Source: Candidatus Latescibacterota bacterium (lineage in GTDB: Bacteria; JAAXHH01). Taken from it: 64,000 bases of DNA. The notes below the pieces were generated by a model that worked only from the letters and a program-made list of their open reading frames with translations, had not been told where the DNA came from and searched no databases. This document shows, in pieces, positions 3,454 through 42,601 of the stretch (positions are counted from its first letter, which is position 1; each line of letters begins with the position of its first letter). The DNA lies in contig JAJEEG010000006.1 of the NCBI GenBank assembly GCA_022821085.1, positions 2,439,330 to 2,503,329 of the forward strand. Direction: 5' to 3'. The position numbers were made by a program, and so were the translations under genes.

Positions 3454-4319
3454 CCTCCAGATATACGTCCGATAACCATCCCTTCGTTACACCCGACGTG
3501 GTCAACACCCTGCCGAGCAAGCCTGCGGATGTTTGGTCCGCGTATGGATCAGCGCCATCCCAGTATGGCGAATTGCGCCTGCCGAAGGGCGACGGTCCCA
3601 ATCCTGTGGCCGTGGTCTTCCACGGTGGCTGCTGGCTCTCGCTTTACGCGGACCTGCACAATGCGGATGCGCTGGCGGACGCGCTGAGAGACGAGGGCAT
3701 CGCGACTTGGAACGTCGAATACCGGTGCGTGGACCAGGATGGAGGCGGATGGCCGGGAACGTTTCTCGACGCGGGGCTCGCGGTAGACCACCTGCGCGCG
3801 CTGGCCGGGGGTCACGGCCTCGATTTGAGCCGCGTGATTACGGTCGGCCACTCGGCAGGCGGCCACCTGGCGCTGTGGACGGCCGCGCGACACAGGCTAC
3901 CCGAGGAAAGCCCGCTGTGGACCGCGGATCCGCTGGGACTGCGTGGGGCAATCGTACTGGGCGGTCCCGGAGATTTGAAGGCATTCGCGCCGCACGCGGA
4001 TGCGGAATGCCGGCAAGGCGTCGTGGCGGAACTGCTGGGGAAGCCTGGTGTATCATCCGAAAGTCTGGAAGCGCGGTACAGGTGCGGATCCCCTGTCAAA
4101 TTGCTGCCGCTTGGCGTGAGACAGGTCACGATCAGCACGGAACATGACTGGGTCGTACCGCCCGAACTGGGTGCGGCCTACGTGGAAGCGGCCCGCGCGG
4201 CCGGTGATCCTGTCGAACACGTCATCGTCTCGAACGCCGGTCACCACGAACTCATGGTCCCGGGTTCGGTGACGTGGCCCGCCATATGCCGGGCCGTGCA
4301 TGCATTACTTGAATCCTGA
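3450..4319 (+). CDS. Alpha/beta hydrolase, kynurenine formamidase/esterase-like
   Basis: The 289-residue protein is an alpha/beta hydrolase of the esterase/lipase D or kynurenine-formamidase-like group. It has an HGGCW oxyanion-hole segment at 58-62, the nucleophile elbow GHSAGGH with Ser135, a likely acid Asp233 in STEHDWVVPP and a histidine in NAGHHELM (265 or 266). Starting at the GTG at 3450 overlaps the upstream stop codon as GTGA and removes 21 unsupported N-terminal residues of the longer open frame. There is no signal peptide. The reaction is probably hydrolysis of a small ester or formamide; there is no tryptophan-pathway gene nearby to support kynurenine. Confidence 0.85.
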   Translation: MTSRYTSDNHPFVTPDVVNTLPSKPADVWSAYGSAPSQYGELRLPKGDGPNPVAVVFHGGCWLSLYADLHNADALADALRDEGIATWNVEYRCVDQDGGGWPGTFLDAGLAVDHLRALAGGHGLDLSRVITVGHSAGGHLALWTAARHRLPEESPLWTADPLGLRGAIVLGGPGDLKAFAPHADAECRQGVVAELLGKPGVSSESLEARYRCGSPVKLLPLGVRQVTISTEHDWVVPPELGAAYVEAARAAGDPVEHVIVSNAGHHELMVPGSVTWPAICRAVHALLES

Positions 4320-4346
4320 GCACGGCCGTGATTCCGGCCGAAATAG

Positions 4347-4394
4347 GAAGCCGGTGATAATAGAAGCCGGTAATGATTGAAGCCGATATTGGAA
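4347..4394. repeat. 16-bp tandem repeat, three units
   Basis: GAAGCCGRT begins at 4347, 4363 and 4379, so three 16-base units lie head to tail in the gap before the SnoaL-like gene. The units diverge in their 3' halves. No function is apparent. Confidence 0.7.
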
Positions 4395-4431
4395 ATGGTT
4401 AGGACTGATTATGGAAATGAAAGGACAAACC

Positions 4432-4821
4432 ATGCCCAGCATCACCGTTAAACCCGATTGCGGCCATTCGCCTAAAAAGGCTCTGCTGCGGGACTTCATC
4501 TCCGCCTTCGCGCACGCGGACGTCGACGGCATCCTGGCCCCAATGAGCGATGACATCGTCTGGAATCTGGTGGGGGAAACCGTGATCGAAGGCAAAGAAA
4601 ACGTCCGCAAACTCCTGGAATCGATGGAAAACGCGGGAACGAGCGATCTCGTCATCGAATCCATCATCACCCACGGCCGGGACGCGGCAGTCAACGGCGT
4701 GATCCGATCGAACGCGGGCCAGGCTCACGCTTTCTGCGATGTCGTTCAGTTTACCAGTACGTCCGGCACGAAGATCAAAACCATGACCTCGTACTCGATT
4801 GCAGTGAGCGAGGAGAGATAA
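4432..4821 (+). CDS. SnoaL-like / nuclear transport factor 2-fold protein
   Basis: About 129 residues with the SnoaL-like pattern: an N-terminal helix (LLRDFISAFAHADVDGILA), then MSDDIVWNLVG and strands ending in a conserved VQFTSTSGTKI region. NTF2-fold proteins of this size are polyketide-cyclase-like, ketosteroid-isomerase-like or simply binding proteins. An in-frame ATG lies at 4411, but AAAGGA seven bases before the ATG at 4432 favours the shorter form. It is three bases ahead of the VOC gene and probably cotranscribed. No specific substrate can be inferred. Confidence 0.75.
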   Translation: MPSITVKPDCGHSPKKALLRDFISAFAHADVDGILAPMSDDIVWNLVGETVIEGKENVRKLLESMENAGTSDLVIESIITHGRDAAVNGVIRSNAGQAHAFCDVVQFTSTSGTKIKTMTSYSIAVSEER

Positions 4822-4824
4822 GCC

Positions 4825-5301
4825 GTGCAGAAGATCGTCACCAATCTGTGGTTCGACGGGCGTGTCGAGGAGGCCCTGGAACTCTATACTTCGCTGCTGC
4901 CCGATTCGCGCGTCCTCGGCGTCACCCGTTACAACAAAGCCGGCATGGGCACACCGGGCGACATCATGACCGCGAACTTCGAACTGGCGGGGCAGTCATT
5001 CACGATCATCAATGGCGGGCCGCATTTTAAACACAGTCCGGCCATGTCGCTCTGCGTCACCTGCGTCGATCAAGAGGAGGTGGACAGACTATGGAACGGC
5101 CTGACATCCGATGGCGGCAAGGAAAGCCGGTGCGGCTGGCTGATCGACCGCTTCGGCGTCTCCTGGCAGATCATGCCGGCGAGGTTGGGCGAGATGCTGG
5201 GCAGTGCTGACACGGCGGCGGTCGAACGGGTCACCGCGTCGTTCCTCAAGATGAACAAGCTCGACATCGCCGAATTGGAAAGGGCCTTCCGCGATGAGTA
5301 G
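4825..5301 (+). CDS. VOC family protein, PhnB-like
   Basis: The 158-residue protein begins QKIVTNLWFDGRVEEALELYTSLLPDS, the typical opening of the PhnB/3-demethylubiquinone-methyltransferase-like branch of the vicinal oxygen chelate superfamily. The later GVSWQIMPARLGEML segment is also characteristic. The start is GTG, preceded by AGGAG. VOC proteins bind metal and act in lyase, dioxygenase or resistance roles, but this branch has no settled function. It overlaps the next gene by eight bases, consistent with an operon of small domains. Confidence 0.85.
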   Translation: MQKIVTNLWFDGRVEEALELYTSLLPDSRVLGVTRYNKAGMGTPGDIMTANFELAGQSFTIINGGPHFKHSPAMSLCVTCVDQEEVDRLWNGLTSDGGKESRCGWLIDRFGVSWQIMPARLGEMLGSADTAAVERVTASFLKMNKLDIAELERAFRDE

Positions 5302-9836: not shown

Positions 9837-12247
9837 AACACTACTTCACGATAAGCGCCAGACATCTGCTCAGGTATAAACACTACGCGGTGCTCAATAC
9901 CCTGAATCTGGCCGTCGGCATATCCTGCGCGATCCTCATCGGGCTATACATCCAGGACGAACGCCAATACGACCGGTATCACGCGAACGCGGATCGTATC
10001 CATCGCATCGTGAACGGGTCCAATGCCAAAACGACGTCCGCCCTCGGCCCCGCCCTGCAGAGACTCCTGCCCGAGGTCCGGTCATTCGTTCGCCTCAGCC
10101 CGCCGTCGGGCGGATGGGTCGTGCGCCACGAAGACCGGTCGTTTTTCGAAGACCGCGTGTTCTGGGCGGACCCCGATCTCTTCAGCGTTTTTACGTTTCC
10201 AATGGTGCAGGGCAATCCCGATCTGGCGCTGCGCGATCCATGGACGGTCGTCATCACCGAATCGATGTCGCGCAAGTACTTCGGCAACGCCGACCCCCTC
10301 GGTGAGACCATATCGCTTGATACGTGGGATTTCACCGTCACGGGCGTGATGCGCGACATACCCGGGCACTCGCATTTTCAGGCGGACTTCTTCCTTGGGA
10401 TTACCGCGGCGCCCGAGTTCTTCGGCGATGACTACCTGGAACGCTGGGAAGCGCCTTTTTTCTATACCTACCTGTTGCTGTCCCCGGATGCGGATCACGG
10501 CGACTTCCAGCAGAAAATGGCGGGTGTGCTCGAAGAGCGGGTCGGCGCCCAGTGGGAAGCGAAAAACGTCACGATGGCCCTCCAATTGCAGCCGCTGACC
10601 GGCATCTACCTGAACTCCCATCTCGAGAACGAGGCCGGATCGAACGGCAACGGCATGTACCTGCTCCTGCTGGCCGCCCTGGCTGTCGTGGTCGTCCTAC
10701 AGGCCTGCTTCAACTTCATGAACATGGCAACGGCCCGTTCGCTGACGCGCATCCGGGAGGTCTCGCTGCGGAAGGTCTTCGGCGCAAACCGGGGACAACT
10801 GGTCCGACAGTACATGGGCGAATCCTTCAGCATCACGTTCGTTGCAACGGCAACCGCGCTGATACTCGTCGCGCTCAGCCTGCCCTTCTTCCAGGAGCTC
10901 ACCGGGAAAACGATCGCGCTCGACGTTTTTTGGTCGTGGCGATTCTGGGCCGGCATCGCCGCGATAACACTCCTGGTAGGGTTCGTTTCCGGCAGTTATC
11001 CCGCGTTCTTCATCGCCGCCTTCAGGCCGATACAGCACTTGAAAGGCTCGTCCGCGACGGAAATATCCGCGACGGGCGCAACCCGCCACATGGTGAGAAG
11101 GTTGCTGGTCATGGGCCAGTGCGTGATGGTGATATTGCTGATCGGCAGCACCTGGGTGTTTACCGTGCAACTGGACTACGTACAGAACAAACGGCTGGGC
11201 CTGCAGGCGGAACAGGTGCTTGTCGGGCCGTCCAGCTTTCCATCCTTCGTGGATCAGTATCCCGTATTCAAGGAATCGCTGGAGCAGCTAACGCAAATCG
11301 AACGCGTCAGTACCGCCATGATGCTGCCCGGCCGCACGGGCCGTAAGGGTATGCTCCCCGCGACGGGCGTGCAACGGACCGATCTGCCCCAGGAAGACGT
11401 GCGGAATTTCCAGGATTTAACCATTACCGACCACTTTGTCGAAGTATTCGGCATGGACCTGCTGGCCGGCCGCACACCCTTGAGGTCGCGCGGCACCGAC
11501 GAGCGCGAAGCCGTACTGATCAACGAAACCGCCATGCGCAGGCTGGGATGGGATTCGCCGGACGAAGCCATCGACCGGGAGATCATGGTCGATATGGGAA
11601 ACCCCTGGGCGCACGAACGTCGGATCATCGGCGTGGTGGCGGATTTTCACATGCGTTCGCTCCATCATCGCATCGAACCCATGATCATCAGGCACTGGTT
11701 CAGGGACAACCTGCCCTTCTACGCGATACGTATCGACACCGATGATCTGAATGGCACGGTCTCCCGGATCGAGGAAACCTGGAAGCAGCTGATGCCGGAC
11801 GTGCCCATGGTATATTCGTTTCTCGACGAGGATTACGACCGGCTCTACGCGGCCGAGCGGACGCTGCGCGAGGTATTCGGCGTCTTTTCGTTCATCGCGG
11901 TCTTCATGGCATGCGCCGGGCTGTTCGGACTGGCATCTTTCATGACAGAGCGGCGCACGAGGGAAATCGTCGTGCGGCGGATTCTTGGTGCCACGGTGTT
12001 TCAAACGGCAGGCCTGCTCCTGAAGGAGTACGTCTACCTGGTGCTGATCGCGACCGCGCTGGCCGCGCCAATCGCCTATTATGCAATGGGGCAGTGGCTT
12101 CAGATGTTCTCGTACCGGGTGGACGTCGGACCGGCCGCCTTCATTGTCGCCGGCGTGGTCGTCCTGGCCATCGCCTTGATGACGGTGAGTCTGCGCGTCG
12201 TCCGCGTGGCCCAGGCGAACCCGGTGGACGCGCTGCGGTATGAATGA
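9830..12247 (+). CDS. ABC transporter permease, MacB/FtsX type (copy 1)
   Basis: An 805-residue inner-membrane protein with a first transmembrane helix at about 20-40, a large periplasmic MacB-type domain, a block of FtsX helices around 280-400, a second periplasmic region and a final FtsX block at about 690-800. Paired sequences such as RSLTRIREVSLRKVFGANRGQL and ERRTREIVVRRILGATVFQ are the conserved cytoplasmic loops that contact an ATPase. No ATPase or membrane-fusion gene is adjacent. The start used is TTG; the N terminus aligns with three permeases at 52-59 kb. These proteins usually export peptides or lipids by mechanotransmission; the cargo is unknown. Confidence 0.88.
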   Translation: MLKHYFTISARHLLRYKHYAVLNTLNLAVGISCAILIGLYIQDERQYDRYHANADRIHRIVNGSNAKTTSALGPALQRLLPEVRSFVRLSPPSGGWVVRHEDRSFFEDRVFWADPDLFSVFTFPMVQGNPDLALRDPWTVVITESMSRKYFGNADPLGETISLDTWDFTVTGVMRDIPGHSHFQADFFLGITAAPEFFGDDYLERWEAPFFYTYLLLSPDADHGDFQQKMAGVLEERVGAQWEAKNVTMALQLQPLTGIYLNSHLENEAGSNGNGMYLLLLAALAVVVVLQACFNFMNMATARSLTRIREVSLRKVFGANRGQLVRQYMGESFSITFVATATALILVALSLPFFQELTGKTIALDVFWSWRFWAGIAAITLLVGFVSGSYPAFFIAAFRPIQHLKGSSATEISATGATRHMVRRLLVMGQCVMVILLIGSTWVFTVQLDYVQNKRLGLQAEQVLVGPSSFPSFVDQYPVFKESLEQLTQIERVSTAMMLPGRTGRKGMLPATGVQRTDLPQEDVRNFQDLTITDHFVEVFGMDLLAGRTPLRSRGTDEREAVLINETAMRRLGWDSPDEAIDREIMVDMGNPWAHERRIIGVVADFHMRSLHHRIEPMIIRHWFRDNLPFYAIRIDTDDLNGTVSRIEETWKQLMPDVPMVYSFLDEDYDRLYAAERTLREVFGVFSFIAVFMACAGLFGLASFMTERRTREIVVRRILGATVFQTAGLLLKEYVYLVLIATALAAPIAYYAMGQWLQMFSYRVDVGPAAFIVAGVVVLAIALMTVSLRVVRVAQANPVDALRYE

Positions 12248-30919: not shown

Positions 30920-31090
30920 CGCATTGGTATCGGCAGCACATCGCCACAGGTAGGGAGCGCCACGGGTATTCATCGACTTAACGCTGGCATAACGCGTCCG
31001 AATCCCGCATAATACCACCTTGAGACATCGATGCGGTTATCGACATGATTCAGGATGATCTTGAAGTTCATTCTGGGAAAGGAACAGCCT

Positions 31091-31981
31091 ATGGCGATGG
31101 TCGACATGAAGCAGATCCATGCGCTGGAAGACGCGACGGACCTGCTGAGAAACCCCTACGAACTGCGGCAACGTGCCGCGGAGCACGGGTGCCTGTTCTT
31201 TCGGCGTCTGCTCGATCCGGCGCGCGTGCTGGCGGTCCGGCGCCAGGTGCTCGAAGTGTGCCGGGAACACGGCTGGCTCGCCCCCGGAACGGATAACATG
31301 GACGGTATCGCGAATTCCGGCATCAGCGTGTTCGAAGGCGACGACCCGCGCTGGATCGCTTTCTACGATGATGTCCAGCGGATCCGCGACTTCCACGCGC
31401 TGGCTCTCGACCCCGCGATCATCCACATGCTCGAAGTGCTGTTCGGAGAACCCGTGCTGGCACACAGCCGGAACATCTGCCGGCTCGTATTCCCGGACAC
31501 GAACACCCACTCGACCCCGCCTCACCAGGACAACTACTTCATCGGCGGATCGGACGAGACGTGGACGGCCTGGATACCGCTCGGCGACTGTCCGGAGGAA
31601 CTCGGCGGGCTCGCCGTCAACCGGGGATCCCACCGCAGCGGCATGCTGGAGACGACCGAAGGCGTGGGGCCGGGCGGGCGGCAGGTACCCGTCGAAGACG
31701 CTTCCGCCTGGGTCGGCGGCGACTATGCCCGCGGCGACGTCATTATCCTGCACAGTCTGACGATACACCAGGGCCGGGACAATCTCTCCGCCGGCCGGCT
31801 CAGGCTATCGGCGGATTACCGCTACCAGCCGAGAAGCCACCCGGTACGGGAAGACTCGCTCCAGCCTCACATGAACTGGCTGACGTGGGAACAGCTGTAC
31901 GCACGGTGGGACGAGGACGATCCGGTGAAGCACTACTGGAGGGACTGGGACCTGGACGTGGTCAAGCGGGAGCCGCGGTAG
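31091..31981 (+). CDS. Phytanoyl-CoA dioxygenase family protein (PhyH copy 3)
   Basis: A 296-residue PhyH-like protein. The H-x-D is in PPHQDNYFIGG, and the distal histidine lies in ILHSLTIHQGRDNLSAGRLRLSADYRY. AAAGGAA precedes the ATG at 31091, so the longer frame from 31055 is not used. The protein is more like copies with the PxHxD motif than like copy 1. It ends 90 bases before an SDR gene. Confidence 0.88.
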   Translation: MAMVDMKQIHALEDATDLLRNPYELRQRAAEHGCLFFRRLLDPARVLAVRRQVLEVCREHGWLAPGTDNMDGIANSGISVFEGDDPRWIAFYDDVQRIRDFHALALDPAIIHMLEVLFGEPVLAHSRNICRLVFPDTNTHSTPPHQDNYFIGGSDETWTAWIPLGDCPEELGGLAVNRGSHRSGMLETTEGVGPGGRQVPVEDASAWVGGDYARGDVIILHSLTIHQGRDNLSAGRLRLSADYRYQPRSHPVREDSLQPHMNWLTWEQLYARWDEDDPVKHYWRDWDLDVVKREPR

Positions 31982-32071
31982 GGGTCTGTACCAGGTCACG
32001 CTCGCGCCCGGACTAGCCAGTGCCAGGCCTCATCCCGGTACCAGAACTCGCCGCCCCTGACACACCTGGAT

Positions 32072-33151
32072 ATGCCCAATCCAATCATCAAGACCGCCAC
32101 ACACCTGGTCCGGATGTTCCTGCCGAAACCGATGGCGGCACCGGTCGATATGTCGGGACGTTACGTGATCGTGACCGGGGCGTCGCCCGGTTCGATCGGT
32201 TACGAAACCGCGAGAATCCTCGCGGGCTGGGGCGCGACGGTCGTGGCGACGCGGGTCCGCGATGTGGTCCTGATGGAAGCGGCGTTGAAAGACGACCTGC
32301 GCAACGGCGGCGCCGACGCGGACAACCTCACGGCGCACGCACTGGATCTCTCCGATTCGCACAGCGTCAACGCCTTCGGCGCCTGGTATCGCGATAAACA
32401 CCAGGGGCAACTTCATGTCCTGATCAACAACGCGGGCATCCACCGGAAGACCCTTGCTCCACGAGAGAAAGCCCCGCTGTCCGAAGATGGCTTCGAGATA
32501 CACTGGCGGACCAACTATCTCGGCGCCTTTCACCTGACCTGGGCGCTGCTGCCACTTCTGCGGCGAGCCGGTGTCGAAAGCGGCGACGCGCGGGTGGTCA
32601 ACGTGTCCTCCGGCCTGCACGACCGGGTCGGTAACACGGACCTGTTTGACGAGGTACCGCACCGTGAGGTCCCGCAACGCGATAGACCGCACCGCGAGGT
32701 CCCGCAACGCGATAGGCCGCGCTACCACTCCTGGGACGCGTACGGAAAGTCGAAACTGGCGATGATTCACATGGCCTTTGAAATCGAGAGACGATTCGCA
32801 GATACGCACAACCTGCACGCCGTGGCCGTACACCCGGGCGTCGTCATGACCAACCTGACCCTGCCGCAGGCGTTTCGAGGACGGATCGGCAAGGCAGCGC
32901 ATCGCATCAATTCCTCGCTGGCCTCGCTGGTCCTGCTGTCCCCGCATGCCGGGGCGCAGACCATCGTGATGTGCGCGAGCCGGCGGCCGCTGCAGGGCGG
33001 GCGGTACTACGAACGTTGCGACGTCGCCGAACCGAGCGCGGACAGCCTTGACGCGGCCGCCTCGAAACGCCTGTGGGAGCAGTCGGAACGGTGGGTCCGA
33101 TCTCGCGCGCGGCACACCGCACACCCCGCAGCGCACGACGAAAATTCGTAA
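32072..33151 (+). CDS. Short-chain dehydrogenase/reductase
   Basis: A 359-residue SDR with a long N-terminal extension. The cofactor motif TGASPGSIG is at 35-43, NNAG at about 119-122 and the catalytic YGKSK has Tyr224 and Lys228; Ser179-180 is likely the active-site serine. Residues 196-215 are a duplicated ten-residue unit (PHREVPQRDR twice), encoded by a 30-base tandem repeat. The sequence resembles retinol dehydrogenase or WW-domain oxidoreductase-like SDRs. It lies between two PhyH genes, so a redox role in the same substrate pathway is possible. Confidence 0.87.
   Translation: MPNPIIKTATHLVRMFLPKPMAAPVDMSGRYVIVTGASPGSIGYETARILAGWGATVVATRVRDVVLMEAALKDDLRNGGADADNLTAHALDLSDSHSVNAFGAWYRDKHQGQLHVLINNAGIHRKTLAPREKAPLSEDGFEIHWRTNYLGAFHLTWALLPLLRRAGVESGDARVVNVSSGLHDRVGNTDLFDEVPHREVPQRDRPHREVPQRDRPRYHSWDAYGKSKLAMIHMAFEIERRFADTHNLHAVAVHPGVVMTNLTLPQAFRGRIGKAAHRINSSLASLVLLSPHAGAQTIVMCASRRPLQGGRYYERCDVAEPSADSLDAAASKRLWEQSERWVRSRARHTAHPAAHDENS
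32657..32716. repeat. 30-bp in-frame tandem repeat, two units
   Basis: Two nearly identical 30-base units (starting CCGCACCG, containing GAGGTCCCGCAACGCGATAG) at 32657 and 32687 duplicate ten residues of the SDR just before the catalytic tyrosine. Confidence 0.8.
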
Positions 33152-33187
33152 TCAGCCTACAGAGATCAAACCTCAGGAAGACCCATC

Positions 33188-33949
33188 TTGGATAACGAAC
33201 TGCTGAAACGGGGGTTCGTACCCCGGCCGCTGAACTCCGCGCAACGCAGGGCGCTGGACACCGAGGGTTTCCTCGTGCTGGAGGAGATCATCTCGCCGGA
33301 CTGGCTCGCCGGGTTGTGCCACGCTTTCGATGAGATTCATGACCGCGAGGGCGACAAGGCGGGCGAAGAGGTCGCACAGATGGAAGGCGTGCGCCGGCTT
33401 GCCGACCTGGTCAACAAGGGATCGGTGTTCGACCCGGTTTACCTGCAGCCTGAACTCTTGACCGCGGTCTTCCATGTCCTGCAGCGGCCGTTCAAGCTGC
33501 ACTCGCTCAACGGGCACGACCCGCTGCCCGGCAGCGGATTGCAGATATTGCACGCCGATTGGGGCCAGCCCGCCGCGCCCGGCGGACCGTACCACGTCGT
33601 CAATTCCATGTGGATGCTCGACGATTTCACCACGGTCAACGGAGCGACGCGCTGCGTGCCCGGTAGCCACCTGACACCCGGCAGGATTACCGACCATGTT
33701 TCCGATCGCATGGCGGACCACCCGGACCAGGTATTTCTGACGGGCCGCGCCGGTTCGGTGGCCGTGTTCAACGGCAACCTGTGGCACAGTTCGTATACCA
33801 ACCGCAGCGACGCCCCACGGCGCGCCCTGCACTGCGCCTTCATAGCCCGTGAACACCCGCAGCAGACCAATCAACGGGAGTACCTGCGGCCAGAAACGGC
33901 CCGTCGGCTTTCCCCCCTGGCGCGCTACATCCTGGACGTGCCCCGGTAA
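33188..33949 (+). CDS. Phytanoyl-CoA dioxygenase family protein (PhyH copy 4)
   Basis: A 253-residue PhyH-like protein. The H-x-D is QILHADWGQP, and NGNLWHSSYTNRSDAPRRALH supplies the distal histidine and the cosubstrate arginine. The start is TTG at 33188 with AGGAAG before it. The coding end (ILDVPR) is the first unit of a 20-base repeat that continues past the stop. It follows the SDR by 36 bases in an operon-like arrangement. Confidence 0.87.
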   Translation: MDNELLKRGFVPRPLNSAQRRALDTEGFLVLEEIISPDWLAGLCHAFDEIHDREGDKAGEEVAQMEGVRRLADLVNKGSVFDPVYLQPELLTAVFHVLQRPFKLHSLNGHDPLPGSGLQILHADWGQPAAPGGPYHVVNSMWMLDDFTTVNGATRCVPGSHLTPGRITDHVSDRMADHPDQVFLTGRAGSVAVFNGNLWHSSYTNRSDAPRRALHCAFIAREHPQQTNQREYLRPETARRLSPLARYILDVPR

Positions 33950-34031
33950 GTCTGGACGTACCTCGGTAAACCTGGACGTCCCTCGGCAATACTGGACGTA
34001 CCTCGTCAATCCGGAACGCCCCTCGGCCATT
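33932..34031. repeat. 20-bp tandem repeat spanning a stop codon, five units
   Basis: CTGGACGT begins at 33932, 33952, 33972 and 33992, and a decayed unit at 34012, giving five 20-base units. The first encodes the last residues of the PhyH protein and its stop; the rest fill the gap up to the stop of the convergent ceramidase-like gene. Confidence 0.85.
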
Positions 34032-35468
34032 TCATTTCCCAAACAGCTCCTTCACCAGGTCCCGTGCCCGCGTGATCACGGTTTCGAGACAGCCTGGGGC
34101 AAGTTTGGCCCAGTAGGTGACGTCGTCGTTGGCCTCGTGCCCACCGCGGGAGTATGCATCCCGCGTCGGCAGGTAACCGACATAGTGCGAGGTGAGGTGG
34201 GCCGGAAAGAGATAGGGTGCCGCCGAGTTTACTTTGAGCGCCAGTTGCCCCTCCACGAAAGGCTCTCCGGGGAGGCCGACAATACCGAGATTGCCGATGC
34301 GAAAGGCCTGGATCTCGTAGCTGAACGTGCCATCCCGCTGCCTGCACAATTCGACGCTGCGTGTCGATGCCGCCCGGAACCAGCGCGGGTCCACCTGCCC
34401 GTCCGCTTCGCGCGGCGGCTTCGGATGCTCGGTGAGGATCATGTCGACTTCGCGCAGGCGCTCGTCCGGAATCTCGCGAAAGGGCAGGCCGATTTTCTCG
34501 ATCCGGGTATCCACCGCGGCATCGCCTTCGAACGTCAGGTTGCGCACGATACGTTCGCTCAGACGGGACAGTCCGCGCCCCATCCGCTGGTGGTCCGGCC
34601 GGAAATCCCCGTCGAAGGGGTGCCAGGGGTTGATATTGCCGCAGCATCCGTTGACGACCAGCGGCACGGTGTCGGCACCGAAGGTCTGCTGCATCTCCCG
34701 GGCCCAGGTGCCGGGCCAGTCTGCCGACGCGGCCAGGAAGGTCTCCCGATTTCCGTACGCATTGACCGGGTGGCACGTGTAGTGCAGGAGAAAGGCCAGC
34801 GGTCTCCCATCCATGTCCTGGACGCAGCAGACCCCTACCTCCGGGTCTATCGGCCCTTCCAGGTAGCATACCTCCGAAATCCCGAAGGGCTGCTGGTCCA
34901 TGCCCAACGGTCTGGGCATGAATATGGTGCCGTCCCTGCGTATGCCGCGCCGGTTGAACGCCAGGTCGCCCAGCACGCCACGGCCCAGGCCGATGCGCGC
35001 GGGTTGCAGCCGGCCCGCCGCTTCCACCGCGGCCTCCACCGCGGCGGCCGCGGCCCGGTCGCCATAGTCACGCTCGGCCCCGCGCAGGTACTCCGTCTTC
35101 TCGGTGGTCTCCAGGGGAAAGTCCGGATCCAGCATGAAGTAACCGAGGCTCGGGGCGGAATGCGTCTGCGTCGCCTGGACCATGATGGCATCCCGTTCAA
35201 TGCCCGTCTGCTCGCAGATGGCCGCGCGGATCCGGTCCGTGTACTCGCCCGTGACGATGGTTAGATCCAGGATCACCAGGCAGACGCGCCGCCCACCCGC
35301 CGCGAAGACGATGGCTTTGGCGAAGAGGGGATCCAGCACGGCCTGGGTCGGGCGATGGTCACCGGCGCCGCTGCCCGCCAGATGAGTCCCGGCTGGCGGG
35401 GATATGTCCACCATCGCCGCACCGGCGCTCAACTGGCTAGACGCGTTCAGCTGGCTAGACGCGCTCAT
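34032..35468 (-). CDS. Neutral/alkaline ceramidase N-terminal domain-like protein
   Basis: A 478-residue protein matching the neutral ceramidase N-terminal domain family: AGAAMVDISPPAGTHLAGSG, VMVQATQTHSAP, LHYTCHPVNAYG and CCGNINPW with zinc-ligand histidines. The family hydrolyses ceramide N-acyl bonds in some members and is unassigned in most environmental ones. No signal peptide is present, unlike secreted ceramidases. The first residues are a duplicated ASSQL sequence encoded by an 18-base repeat (35427-35462). It is convergent with the PhyH gene across the 20-base repeats. Confidence 0.82.
   Translation of the reverse strand: MSASSQLNASSQLSAGAAMVDISPPAGTHLAGSGAGDHRPTQAVLDPLFAKAIVFAAGGRRVCLVILDLTIVTGEYTDRIRAAICEQTGIERDAIMVQATQTHSAPSLGYFMLDPDFPLETTEKTEYLRGAERDYGDRAAAAAVEAAVEAAGRLQPARIGLGRGVLGDLAFNRRGIRRDGTIFMPRPLGMDQQPFGISEVCYLEGPIDPEVGVCCVQDMDGRPLAFLLHYTCHPVNAYGNRETFLAASADWPGTWAREMQQTFGADTVPLVVNGCCGNINPWHPFDGDFRPDHQRMGRGLSRLSERIVRNLTFEGDAAVDTRIEKIGLPFREIPDERLREVDMILTEHPKPPREADGQVDPRWFRAASTRSVELCRQRDGTFSYEIQAFRIGNLGIVGLPGEPFVEGQLALKVNSAAPYLFPAHLTSHYVGYLPTRDAYSRGGHEANDDVTYWAKLAPGCLETVITRARDLVKELFGK
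35427..35462. repeat. 18-bp in-frame tandem repeat, two units
   Basis: GCTCAACTGGCTAGACGC at 35427 and GTTCAGCTGGCTAGACGC at 35445 duplicate six residues at the N terminus of the ceramidase-like protein. Confidence 0.75.
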
Positions 35469-35823
35469 GGTTTACCTTTCGTCGTTTTTCGGTCACCAAT
35501 CGGGGCGTAACACATGGACTTCAGATATGAGCCGTCACCGGTTTTGTCAATGCCGTTTTGTCTTGACAGACCCGTGTACTTTTATTGGACAATAGCAAAT
35601 AAGGACTACATGGTCTACGAGCGTGTTCAGTTCAACACCGTCTCGCTGTTCACCTGCCGTCAACGGGATGACGACCGGCAGCTATGCGCGGAGAAATACG
35701 GCACCGAAAATGGGTGGAATACCAGGCGCGAGTGAAGTACAGGATTGTTCCGGGGGTTTATTGCGTGCTGATTGAGGCAAAGTGGCGAGGTGCCGGCGTG
35801 AGATTCAAGAAGGACGTTGCCGA
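35469..35823. other. Intergenic region upstream of methyltransferase
   Basis: A 355-base stretch, less GC-rich than average. TTGACA at 35563-35568 is a possible -35 box for the methyltransferase, with only a poor -10 (GACAAT, 19 bases on). A 41-residue frame at 35610-35735 has a cramped ribosome site and is not called as a gene. Confidence 0.35.
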
Positions 35824-36534
35824 ATGAAAGCCAATAGAACAGAGGAGTCACGCAGGTTACTGCACTCCGTAAAGGACAAGTACAACGGTCCTGAAGAACT
35901 TGATATCCGAAAAGACGAACTGAAAAACGGCATCCGCGAGGTCGAACAGGCGTTCGTAAGAAAGTACCCGCCAGGCAGCCGTCTGTTAGACATTGGATGT
36001 GCGTCAGGACGGCTATGCTTCGCACTGGCAAGGCAGGGATTCTACGTCATGGGGATCGATGTCGCCGGCAAGCAGATAGATCAGGCAAGGCGACATGCGC
36101 AGGACGAAAACATCGATGTAACGTTCCTGCAATACGAAATGCCGACGCTGCCTCTTCCCGACGCCTCTTTTGCCGCAGCGTTTATGGGCAACGTGTACTG
36201 TTATGTCCCCCACCGCGCGGCGCGTATTGCGTTTTTAGATGAGGTCGCGCGAGTGCTGGTCCCGGATGGCGAGGTTTTTCTTTCGCAGACCGTCCTGGAT
36301 TCCGTATTGGCAAGTTACAAAGAGATTTGCGATGACAACCATCGTCGATTTGCTCCCGGCTACGAGACCCTGGAAGAAGGGGACGGGTTCATTTTGGGAG
36401 CGCCGCAATATCTGCACTTCTTCTTCGTCGATGACCTCAAGGCGGAACTGGCGGCCTCGTCGTTTCAGATTGTCGATCCGGTCCTGGAGGGTGACCTTTT
36501 TCACTGTGTTTTAAGGAAGCGGAACGGGGTGTAA
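35824..36534 (+). CDS. Class I SAM-dependent methyltransferase
   Basis: A 236-residue methyltransferase. Motif I is LLDIGCASGRL at about 54-64; GIDVAGKQIDQAR supplies the acidic ribose-binding residue and PLPDASFAAAFMGNVYCY the post-motif II loop. GAAGGA before the ATG at 35824 favours this start over the ATG-equivalent at 35782. It resembles Methyltransf_11/25 proteins; the acceptor is unknown. It lies in the gap between the ceramidase-like gene and a convergent PhyH gene. Confidence 0.87.
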   Translation: MKANRTEESRRLLHSVKDKYNGPEELDIRKDELKNGIREVEQAFVRKYPPGSRLLDIGCASGRLCFALARQGFYVMGIDVAGKQIDQARRHAQDENIDVTFLQYEMPTLPLPDASFAAAFMGNVYCYVPHRAARIAFLDEVARVLVPDGEVFLSQTVLDSVLASYKEICDDNHRRFAPGYETLEEGDGFILGAPQYLHFFFVDDLKAELAASSFQIVDPVLEGDLFHCVLRKRNGV

Positions 36535-36632
36535 CCGGCCATCTCCCAAGCTGGCCACCGATACAGCTTCCTGGCCCGCTGCCAACCCGGTAACCTGAAC
36601 CTTGATCAGCATGGCTCATACCGGCCTGTTCA

Positions 36633-37370
36633 TCAAACCTTCCTCGCCACATGCCGGTCTTCATAGATCCCCTTCTGGAACCTTTCCGGATTGAGTGCTT
36701 CGGGCATGTAATGCCATGCCGTGCTGTAGCGCGTGCGATCGCTGTGGTTGTCATAGGCGCCGTGCAGCAGGTTCGCGGAAAACAGTACAACTGTACCTTC
36801 GGGAATGACCAGGTCCACGGCCTGCGCTTCATCGACCTTCGTCCAGCTGCCGTGCCTGTTTATCTCGCTGCGGTGCTCCACGATCTCACCCATTCGGTGG
36901 CTGCCGGGCACCACCCGCAGGCAGCCGTTCTCCACGTCCGCGTCTTCCAGGTAGATCCCGCAACTGACGATGCGGTCCGTGTCGGTGCCGAAGTAGTAAT
37001 TGTCCTGGTGCCAGCTCGTTGAAGTGCCGCCATCGGGCAACTTCGGAAAGAACTTGGTTCCGAACACGTCGAGATTCTCTCCGATCAATTCGGCAACACG
37101 GTCCACAATCACCGGTTCACGCGCCAGTTCCAGCACGCGGTCATCGACCACGCAAACCCCCTGGATCTTGTGCAGGAGTCCTGCCCGGGGTTCGCCGTGT
37201 TCGTCCTTCTCGAACGACCAGTGCGGTATCTGCTCGGTCAACTTGCGTCCATCTGCGACCAACTCGTCGAACACCTGCTTGTAGTAAGCCAGGCGCTCAC
37301 CTTGAATCAGCGCTTCAAAGACGAGAAAGCCGTCATCCCGGTACTGCCGCAACTGATCTTTTGTTAACAT
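36633..37370 (-). CDS. Phytanoyl-CoA dioxygenase family protein (PhyH copy 5)
   Basis: A 245-residue PhyH-like protein. H-x-D is in SWHQDNYYFGTDTD; the distal histidine is in SANLLHGAYDNHSDRTRYSTAWHYM. LTKDQLRQYRDDGFLVFEALI is the usual N-terminal helix and strand. It closely resembles environmental PhyH proteins annotated as ectoine-hydroxylase-like, without the ectoine cluster being here. It is downstream of the DUF4377 lipoprotein on the same strand by 109 bases. Confidence 0.88.
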   Translation of the reverse strand: MLTKDQLRQYRDDGFLVFEALIQGERLAYYKQVFDELVADGRKLTEQIPHWSFEKDEHGEPRAGLLHKIQGVCVVDDRVLELAREPVIVDRVAELIGENLDVFGTKFFPKLPDGGTSTSWHQDNYYFGTDTDRIVSCGIYLEDADVENGCLRVVPGSHRMGEIVEHRSEINRHGSWTKVDEAQAVDLVIPEGTVVLFSANLLHGAYDNHSDRTRYSTAWHYMPEALNPERFQKGIYEDRHVARKV

Positions 37371-38566: not shown

Positions 38567-40711
<2,145 letters not shown>

Positions 40712-40799
40712 TCCTGACCTCTACGCACCGCGGCGCTCAATACGGCAAGGCGGTACAGGCCATTCTACACGACGAAATGACCTGGCGAGGACACAGGTG

Positions 40800-41822
40800 A
40801 TGCCCGTCACCGTCCACAACCCGGTTTCGAAGGCCGTCAAGCGGGAAGACACCGCTCATGTGGCCGAGAAGTACCGCAGCTTCCATAACGAGGGAATGGG
40901 AGGAAGTTCCCTCGTTCGCAAGCAGCGCTACATGGAAATGGTCAACCAGTACTATGACCTGGTTACCGATTTCTATGAATACGGCTGGGGGCAGTCCTTC
41001 CACTTTGCGCCACGCAAGCGAAACGAGTCATTTGAAGATTCCCTCGTCCGACATGAGTTGTTCCTGGCCGAATCCATGAACCTTCACCGGGACATGCGGG
41101 TGCTGGACGTCGGCTGCGGCGTAGGCGGTCCAATGCGACTCTTCGCAAGGGAGTTCGGCGCCCACGTGGTCGGGCTCAACAACAACGCGTATCAACTGGG
41201 CAAGTGCGAAACCTACAACCGCGAGGCCGGCCTCGAGCATCAGACAGCACTCCTGCGGGGCGACTTCATGCAAATCCCGGCGGCAGAAGCGAGCTACGAT
41301 GCCGCCTATCAGATCGAGGCCACGCCCCATGCACCCGATAAAGAGGGGGTCTTTGCCGAGATCTGGCGCGTGTTGCGGCCCGGCGGCGTGTTCGGCGGGT
41401 ACGAGTGGTGCATGACGTCCTTATACAACGCCGGGGACCCGCGTCACCAGGAAATCAAGAAGGGCATTGAGACGGGCAACAGTCTCCCGGATATCGCGTC
41501 CTTCGACGACGTGACCGGAGCTTTGCAAAACGTGGGATTCGAAGTGATGGACGCATTCGATACAGCCGATAACTCGGATCCGGAGACGCCCTGGTACCGG
41601 GCGCTGGAGGGAAGGGACTTTACGATAAAGAGCCTGCCGAGGACAGCCATTGGCAGATTCTTCACCACCTGGGCCTTGCGGATCCTGGAGCCTCTGCATA
41701 TCGTGCCGAAGGGTACGACCGACGTACAGGACTTCCTCAACATAGCCGCGGACAGTCTTGTAGCCGGCGGGCGGCTCGGTATATTTACGCCCATGTACTA
41801 CTTCAAGGCACGCAAGCCATAG
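40800..41822 (+). CDS. Sterol C-24 methyltransferase homologue (Erg6/SMT family)
   Basis: A 340-residue SAM methyltransferase with the full sterol C-24 methyltransferase signature. Region I reads YYDLVTDFYEYGWGQSFHFA (51-70), motif I is LDVGCGVGGPMR (102-113), then GLNNNAYQ (125-132) and YQIEATPHAPDKEGVF (170-185), equivalent to the conserved YxIEATxHAP of eukaryotic SMTs. The C terminus has the SMT C-terminal domain (about 270-340). This family methylates the sterol side chain. GTG at 40797 is also possible, but ATG at 40800 is used because GAGGA lies eight bases before it. Neither squalene epoxidase nor oxidosqualene cyclase is in the window, so the sterol source is unknown. Confidence 0.88.
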   Translation: MPVTVHNPVSKAVKREDTAHVAEKYRSFHNEGMGGSSLVRKQRYMEMVNQYYDLVTDFYEYGWGQSFHFAPRKRNESFEDSLVRHELFLAESMNLHRDMRVLDVGCGVGGPMRLFAREFGAHVVGLNNNAYQLGKCETYNREAGLEHQTALLRGDFMQIPAAEASYDAAYQIEATPHAPDKEGVFAEIWRVLRPGGVFGGYEWCMTSLYNAGDPRHQEIKKGIETGNSLPDIASFDDVTGALQNVGFEVMDAFDTADNSDPETPWYRALEGRDFTIKSLPRTAIGRFFTTWALRILEPLHIVPKGTTDVQDFLNIAADSLVAGGRLGIFTPMYYFKARKP

Positions 41823-41929
41823 TCTCGCAATGCGCGCCTATACACTAGCCCTGTTCATGTGCTTCGCATCGATACGGCACACCTCGCGCCTCACTCCCAT
41901 ACTGCAGGCTGAGGATTCGACGAAGCGGA

Positions 41930-42601
41930 TTAAAGGCCCAGCACGCCGTAGTCGCCATCCAGGATGAGGCGCGCCGACACGTACAGTCCAAGTAAGGCGA
42001 AGAGCACCCAGGGACCGTTCATGGCCCAGATGTAAGTGAACACTTCGCCCCGGCTGATATGGCGCTGTCTCCCGGCGACGAAGAAGCTGGCCAAATAGAC
42101 CGACGTAACGTAGGTCCATTGCCAGAAAAGTATGAGTCCGAGCATGCCGGCCAGGACCGCCGGCATGAAATCGACCGTTAAAGCCGCGTAGAGGATCAGG
42201 ATCGGAAGCGCCGCAACGAATCCGTTGGCAAAGTCGATGTTGAATCCCAAAGAGCGTCGGTCTGAAAAGGATCCGTCGACGAGGGCGTACGTAGCCCAGA
42301 CATCCGCCCAGACTGTTGGCGAAAGGATCTTCGTCAAGGGCACCCTGGTCGTGAGAAACTCGACCGACGGCGTTCGGCCGGATTCACGTTGCCGTGCGCG
42401 CCAATATTCGGTGCGTCTCTCGATATAGTCCCGTTTGAAAAACAAACACATCTCCCAGTAGCAAAGCAGAAGATTGAACGAGAAAAACAGACTGAACAAG
42501 CCGTGGATTATATTGAAGTCCCCGATCAGATAGAAACGAGTACTTACACCGAGCAGCGTCAGCAGCATGACTACCACCGCTGCAAAAAGTCCAGGTGCCA
42601 T
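41930..42601 (-). CDS. Polytopic membrane protein, possibly EXPERA/EBP-like
   Basis: A 223-residue protein with about five or six hydrophobic helices and no family that I recognise firmly. Segments WATYALVDGSFSDRRS and EVFTYIWAMNGPWVLFAL are reminiscent of the W-x-x-Y-x-x-x-D and YxWxxxxNxxW patterns of emopamil-binding-protein (EBP, sterol delta-8,7 isomerase)-type EXPERA proteins, but the key glutamates of EBP are not clear. It lies 107 bases from and convergent with the sterol methyltransferase gene. AAGGAG is about eight bases before the ATG. The EBP link is speculative; membrane location is firm. Confidence 0.75.
   Translation of the reverse strand: MAPGLFAAVVVMLLTLLGVSTRFYLIGDFNIIHGLFSLFFSFNLLLCYWEMCLFFKRDYIERRTEYWRARQRESGRTPSVEFLTTRVPLTKILSPTVWADVWATYALVDGSFSDRRSLGFNIDFANGFVAALPILILYAALTVDFMPAVLAGMLGLILFWQWTYVTSVYLASFFVAGRQRHISRGEVFTYIWAMNGPWVLFALLGLYVSARLILDGDYGVLGL

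Follow-up and report, generated by a model that had tools for sequence, protein, structure and literature searches.

The window, a stretch of 64,000 nucleotides within a 2.87-Mb contig, belongs to a genome of 3.75 Mb (G000; 7 contigs, 96% complete). An intronless coding sequence of 340 amino acids, SMT-A, lies on its forward strand at 40800..41822, with an ATG start and a TAG stop. A GTG start 3 bases upstream is given in the program-made list of open reading frames; the beginning M-P-(V/I)-T-V-H-N is common to the orthologues of SMT-A, which supports the ATG at 40800. The gene was identified as that of a sterol C-24 methyltransferase (24-SMT) from its Sterol_MT_C match, its place in a phylogenetic tree, its residues, and its dN/dS. 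On its left is katG, encoding a catalase-peroxidase (38579..40711, forward strand; PF00141, 240 bits), which is conserved in all of the genus genomes compared. On its right, on the reverse strand at 41930..42601, is the gene for a conserved membrane protein that has no Pfam match and is shared by 9 of 11 genus genomes.

SMT-A matches Sterol_MT_C (PF08498) with 82.7 bits (E 2e-23, cut-off 21.7) at residues 281-341 in GTG-start numbering, which places the C-terminal domain at 41637..41819 on the forward strand. It also matches Methyltransf_11 (PF08241) with 66.3 bits, above the cut-off, and has both the Rossmann methyltransferase domain and the Sterol_MT_C domain of a 24-SMT. Alignment located the four sterol methyltransferase regions on the forward strand, with a residue table used in addition for Regions I, III, and IV. 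Region I, FYEYGWGQSFHF (40971..41006), corresponds to residues 80-91 of yeast Erg6 and contains the sterol-binding aromatics. Region II is LDVGCGVGGP (41103..41132), for binding of S-adenosylmethionine, Region III is YQIEATPHAP (41307..41336), and Region IV is YEWCMTSLYNAGDPRHQEIKKGIETGNSLP (41400..41489; YEWCMT...GNSLP). The Erg6-numbered residues Y81, E82, Y83, G84, W85, G86, H90, H107, D125, Y153, D189, Y192, E195, H199, E209, Y223, E224, W225, and D276 are all kept. Among these are the Y81-E-Y-G-W-G86 stretch, Y153, Y192, Y223, and W225 that, with Regions I-IV, characterize a 24-SMT. There are two departures from Erg6, C198 to P in Region III and D152 to A, both of which are common in the bacterial clade of SMT-A. 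The first-pass annotation had described the four motifs and the C-terminal domain as intact, and this is borne out.

SMT-A shares with yeast Erg6 and plant SMT1 the four regions, the catalytic residues, and the C-terminal domain, with about 41-42% identity to Erg6 and about 46-47% to Arabidopsis SMT1. It differs from them in the proline that replaces the Region III cysteine and in falling outside the branch that unites the two eukaryotic proteins. A PDB sequence search with SMT-A found no closely related 24-SMT structure, the top matches being other methyltransferases; entry 6f5z, labelled 24-sterol C-methyltransferase, is matched in the generic domain only. No SMT model was above its cut-off for SMT-A in an NCBIfam search. 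Judged by its sequence, SMT-A can be taken as a genuine, full-length bacterial member of the sterol C-24 methyltransferase family.

Relatives were collected by a profile scan of the genomes of 84,980 species, from which the best 80 loci were kept, approximately 45 of them SMTs. Nearly all of the SMTs among these loci are from uncultured, metagenome-assembled genomes (MAGs), and many of the isolates have names of the form used in sponge metagenome projects. For one of these projects the sponge species are given in PMC8163846, and the isolate prefixes RHO, COS, and IRC presumably stand for them. In the resulting tree, all SMTs are set apart from other methyltransferases (CFA, sarcosine, and other small-molecule enzymes) with support of 99/99. 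A position in a non-sterol clade, which would have spoken against the original identification, was not obtained. The Erg6 and SMT1 sequences are on the same side of the tree as SMT-A (90/91), and the SMTs divide into a canonical group A, with the yeast, plant, and window proteins, and a divergent clade B (100/98). Within the former, SMT-A is inside a clade of bacterial SMTs supported at 100/98, its nearest kin among the best 80 loci being SMTs, 51-58% identical to it, from MAGs of Alphaproteobacteria, Gammaproteobacteria, and Dadabacteria, mostly of sponge projects. The genomes of three close relatives (L014, L017, and L018) encode both squalene epoxidase and cyclase. A sponge origin of SMT-A is possible on a tree with only two eukaryotic sequences; symbiont SMTs have been found to fall apart from sponge SMTs (Brown et al. 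2023, PMC10070321). Such genes were initially described as rare, and the distribution of Sterol_MT_C agrees with this: of the genomes searched, it occurs in 11 of 12 from the genus and in no other relative. The SMT relatives are what point to a link between the source bacterium and sponges.

Two other members of the genus, G001 and G004, have SMT-A in the same place, with a protein that is 92% identical. In four sister genomes the segment that bears it (40705..41936, defined by comparison with the empty site) is missing, and the gap between katG and its neighbour is 67-149 bp, compared with 1.2 kb in the window. A tree of the flanking genes places G000, G001, and G004 on one side of a branch supported at 100/100, and the branching order of SMT-A, ((G000,G001),G004), agrees with that of the flanking genes. 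The dN/dS of SMT-A is about 0.13 (0.03 over 0.25), with values of about 0.12-0.17 among the three, a low level indicative of purifying selection, which suggests that the protein is in use. The simplest history would be a single acquisition followed by vertical descent.

It seems simplest to regard the insert as the derived state. An ERG4/ERG24-family gene, the best solved relative of which is the Delta14-sterol reductase 4quv (E 1e-35), is intact in six sister genomes, and in the three that were checked (G003, G007, and G010) it is approximately 5 kb upstream of katG. G007 also has a 5alpha-reductase-type gene in this region. The window has a 3' remnant of this Delta14-sterol-reductase-like gene at 35603..35755 on the forward strand, detected by blastn of the intact sister gene (78.5% over 121 bp and 84% over 37 bp), and G004 has a 5' remnant (L095 7857-7973). 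If the insert is derived, sterol genes would therefore have been in the katG region before SMT-A. Also near katG, at 31055-37370 of the window, are three phytanoyl-CoA-dioxygenase-like genes and a weakly ceramidase-like gene; the region of the ceramidase-like gene is absent from G001.

Searches of 11 genus genomes, G000 among them, gave no match to the N-terminal domain of oxidosqualene/hopene cyclase (SQHop_cyclase_N, PF13249) or to squalene epoxidase (PF08491), so no sterol would be made in this genus. The observation that no sterol-forming genes are in the window thus holds for the whole genome, and the search for epoxidase and cyclase that had been suggested for the flanking genome gave nothing genome-wide or genus-wide.

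The genus does have a set of steroid-related genes. In the sister species these form a block with the order outer-membrane factor, membrane-fusion protein, AcrB-type RND pump, GPP34-P450 fusion, SMT-B, and TPR protein, followed on the opposite strand by a KshA-type Rieske oxygenase and an FAD oxidoreductase. In G000, G001, and G004 the pump, TPR, and Rieske genes are kept, SMT-B is absent from the block, and a diverged GPP34-P450 (56-58%) is further along. The G000 block continues with a dehydrogenase (202.5 bits to SdmB, 206 to HpnA, and 71 to 3beta-HSD) and a 3-oxo-5alpha-steroid 4-dehydrogenase (174 bits), the best solved relatives of which are steroid 5alpha-reductases (7c83, E 9e-80; human SRD5A2, 7bw1, E 2e-46). 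Among solved structures, the Rieske protein is closest to 3-ketosteroid 9alpha-hydroxylases (4qdf, E 1e-21); a full Rieske match was found in 11 of 11 genus genomes searched and in 0 of 8 other genomes in the sample. The locus resembles the SdmA/SdmB C-4 demethylase system in having an SdmB-like dehydrogenase and a Rieske protein with weak similarity to SdmA. However, the scores are far under the curated cut-offs (600), the SdmB score of the dehydrogenase ties with that for HpnA, and the Rieske protein is nearer to KshA. The TPR protein was considered as a BstC and rejected, since only short TPR stretches were matched in a PDB sequence search; the BstC-type periplasmic sterol-binding protein of a BstABC system was not recognized in it.

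In G000 the GPP34-P450 gene (L146 6345-8474, reverse strand; contig C1 near 1.674 Mb) contains an in-frame stop and is open in G001 and G004. A frameshift was ruled out, as the alignment has no internal indel, and the gene is either a pseudogene or affected by a sequencing error. Cytochrome P450 fused in one frame to a GPP34 (Golgi phosphoprotein 3-like) domain is found in many phyla (L098 6737-9034 and orthologues).

Taken together, these features make it reasonably likely that SMT-A serves in C-24 methylation of acquired Delta24 sterols, alongside the tailoring locus, and was gained once by horizontal transfer. With S-adenosylmethionine as the methyl donor, the enzyme would methylate the sterol side chain at its Delta24 double bond, giving 24-methyl and perhaps also 24-ethyl sterols. 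Its substrate, a Delta24 sterol such as desmosterol, would come from a host or its food, or from a neighbour that makes sterols. SMT-A may act in concert with the Rieske oxygenase, the P450, the SdmB/3beta-HSD-like dehydrogenase, the steroid 5alpha-reductase, and the tripartite RND pump, the tailoring enzymes oxidizing and reducing the rings of the acquired sterols. 3-Oxo sterols are substrates for the 24-SMTs of yeast and plants (PMC6997595), so methylation and the ring steps could occur in either order. The products may be used in the membrane, as signals, or for export. In the ancestor of the three sister species the gene would have arrived as a single-gene insertion beside katG, and the same lineage would have lost an older clade B SMT-like gene and the Delta14-sterol-reductase-like gene. 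The first-pass annotation had proposed that a symbiont could methylate a host sterol; methylation of a sterol that the bacterium does not itself make gains support from the Rieske, SdmB/3beta-HSD-like, 5alpha-reductase, and P450 genes, and the bacterium probably remodels sterols from a host or neighbours. Against this stand the distance of 0.8 Mb between the tailoring locus and SMT-A in G000, the in-frame stop in the P450, and the failure to identify a sterol importer, the TPR protein of the locus having given no match to BstC.

The supply of another isoprenoid also counts against a sterol substrate. On another contig of G000 (L125 8716-12101, C2), profile matches identified adjacent squalene/phytoene-synthase-family genes that resemble hpnC and hpnD, together with hpnE. 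The HpnD model scores 273.6 bits on a joined frame, compared with its cut-off of 278.6, and hpnE scores 420.8 bits, above its cut-off. The genus therefore probably makes squalene, judging by these genes, with no cyclase found to cyclize it. SMT-related squalene methyltransferases are present in the alga Botryococcus, and by analogy SMT-A could methylate the cell's own non-sterol Delta24-like isoprenoid, most likely squalene. This is unlikely, however, as hpnCDE are genus-wide and SMT-A is in three genomes only, and as SMT-A keeps all sterol-typical residues of Regions I-IV except C198 and D152. In addition, several of its nearest relatives come from genomes that encode squalene epoxidase and cyclase, and its own genome has a 5alpha-reductase and a Rieske protein for steroids.

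These steroid genes could instead serve for feeding on sterols by 9,10-seco catabolism, with SMT-A having a minor or detoxifying part. KshA, an enzyme of that pathway, is similar to the Rieske protein, and a study of sponge metagenomes reported steroid catabolism and divergent clusters of sponge KshA (PMC5790920). However, the best match in 11 genomes to the HsaC-type dioxygenase (TIGR03213) has 65.5 bits, against a cut-off of 366, which makes tailoring more likely than feeding. A reductase and an exporter are also encoded in the locus, and adding a methyl group is a step of synthesis, not of degradation. Catabolism as the main role is accordingly improbable, and tailoring of acquired sterols is to be preferred.

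A de novo sterol pathway to which SMT-A belongs, with the cyclase and epoxidase missed or lying in an assembly gap, is very improbable. The genome is 96% complete and in 7 contigs, which leaves some room for this, and L014, L017, and L018 show that close relatives occur in genomes with both enzymes. The absence extends, however, to all 11 genus genomes, among them the three with SMT-A (completeness 96-98%), and the same models were positive in 17-25 of 45 other, SMT-bearing genomes.

The divergent SMTs of clade B (L031, L036-L038, L040-L042, L044-L048, L050-L052, L054, L059, and L073, plus loci L004-L012) have invariably lost the aromatics of the 24-SMTs: in Erg6 numbering, Y81 is replaced by M, E82 by V, Y153 by I or V, Y223 by Q, and W225 by M. 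The 24-SMTs need the aromatics of Region I, and a nematode 4-SMT that methylates ring A and takes 3-oxo sterols is without them (PMC6997595). Lacking these aromatics, the clade B proteins may methylate a position other than C-24. The clade spans at least 8 phyla, and Rieske, GPP34-P450, FAD oxidase, or pump genes are nearby in 14 of the 19 loci outside the genus of the window. Squalene epoxidase is in 1 of 18 clade B genomes and in 16 of 26 group A genomes (Fisher p = 1.6e-4, for MAGs that are incomplete and related). Group A and clade B SMTs occur in the same setting, as is seen from two loci. L019, a Dadabacteria locus with an A-type SMT from the clade of SMT-A itself, adjoins the GPP34-P450 and FAD oxidase genes typical of clade B. 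On L043, a contig of a Nitrospinota MAG, SMTs of both types lie within about 7 kb of each other (3770-4825, reverse strand, and 9869-10906, forward strand).

The nematode enzyme (STRM-1, PMC6997595) has a family resemblance to SMT-A and acts with 3-oxo sterols, and the 3beta-HSD-like and 5alpha-reductase genes of this genome would yield 3-oxo steroids. Methylation of the sterol nucleus by SMT-A, at C-4 of a 3-oxo sterol, is nevertheless highly improbable, since the 4-SMT has none of the aromatics of Region I and only 21% identity to Erg6, as compared with about 42% for SMT-A (PMC6997595 for the 4-SMT). These aromatics, absent from both the 4-SMT and the clade B proteins of the sister species, are present in SMT-A. 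Such an activity would suit clade B rather than SMT-A. Sterol side-chain alkylation is classically eukaryotic, and SMT-A might on that account be suspected of being contamination from a sponge or alga, or an assembly chimera, a suspicion refuted by junctions common to three genomes with a precise empty site in the sisters, as well as by the 2.87-Mb bacterial contig, the intronless gene, and its clustering with bacterial SMTs.

The reading of SMT-A as a side-chain methyltransferase acting on acquired sterols has precedent, the kind of enzyme being already known. Of 24 uncultured-bacterial SMTs tested in vitro, 20 were active (Brown et al. 2023, PMC10070321); the other four were inactive on the two sterols tested, which counts against assuming that SMT-A is active. 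Several of these bacterial family members are, moreover, from sponge metagenomes. One of the active enzymes comes from a Chlamydiae MAG in which the SMT is the sole sterol gene (PMC10070321), the rest of the pathway being missing as it is for SMT-A. Many of the published genes were reported beside OSC and sdmA/sdmB for de novo synthesis, whereas SMT-A is a lone insert beside katG in a genus without cyclase or epoxidase but with a tailoring locus. Judged by the literature that was accessible, two features are new: an SMT coupled to a steroid-tailoring locus in a genus that makes no sterols, and the swap between two SMT types in one genus. No report of such a steroid locus in sponge symbionts was found in that literature.

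It is tempting to go further and see a transferable sterol-remodelling module in many phyla, mostly in sponge-project bacteria without sterol synthesis. The clade B member, its usual methylase, would be a C-4 ring methylase that was swapped for a C-24 methylase in the window lineage, and such bacteria would jointly set the sterols of their hosts and the sterane fossils that these leave. This broader proposal is tentative and, as a whole, rather doubtful. The 24-alkyl sterols in rocks are read as signs of algae, fungi, and sponges or animals; if bacteria without sterol synthesis can alkylate borrowed sterols, the side chains deposited by a holobiont could be predicted neither from the genome of the organism itself nor from whether a cyclase is present. 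The genus offers a natural comparison, between species with a side-chain SMT and species with a divergent SMT-like gene and the Delta14-sterol-reductase-like gene.

Fusions are a further feature of the SMT-bearing genomes. In many other such MAGs, epoxidase and cyclase are in a single frame of 1000-1500 amino acids. An uninterrupted frame of 1581 amino acids in a Candidatus Versatilivorator MAG (L029 6248-10990, JAPVWS010000307.1) has the order squalene epoxidase, oxidosqualene cyclase, and SMT, and is an apparent three-enzyme sterol fusion protein.
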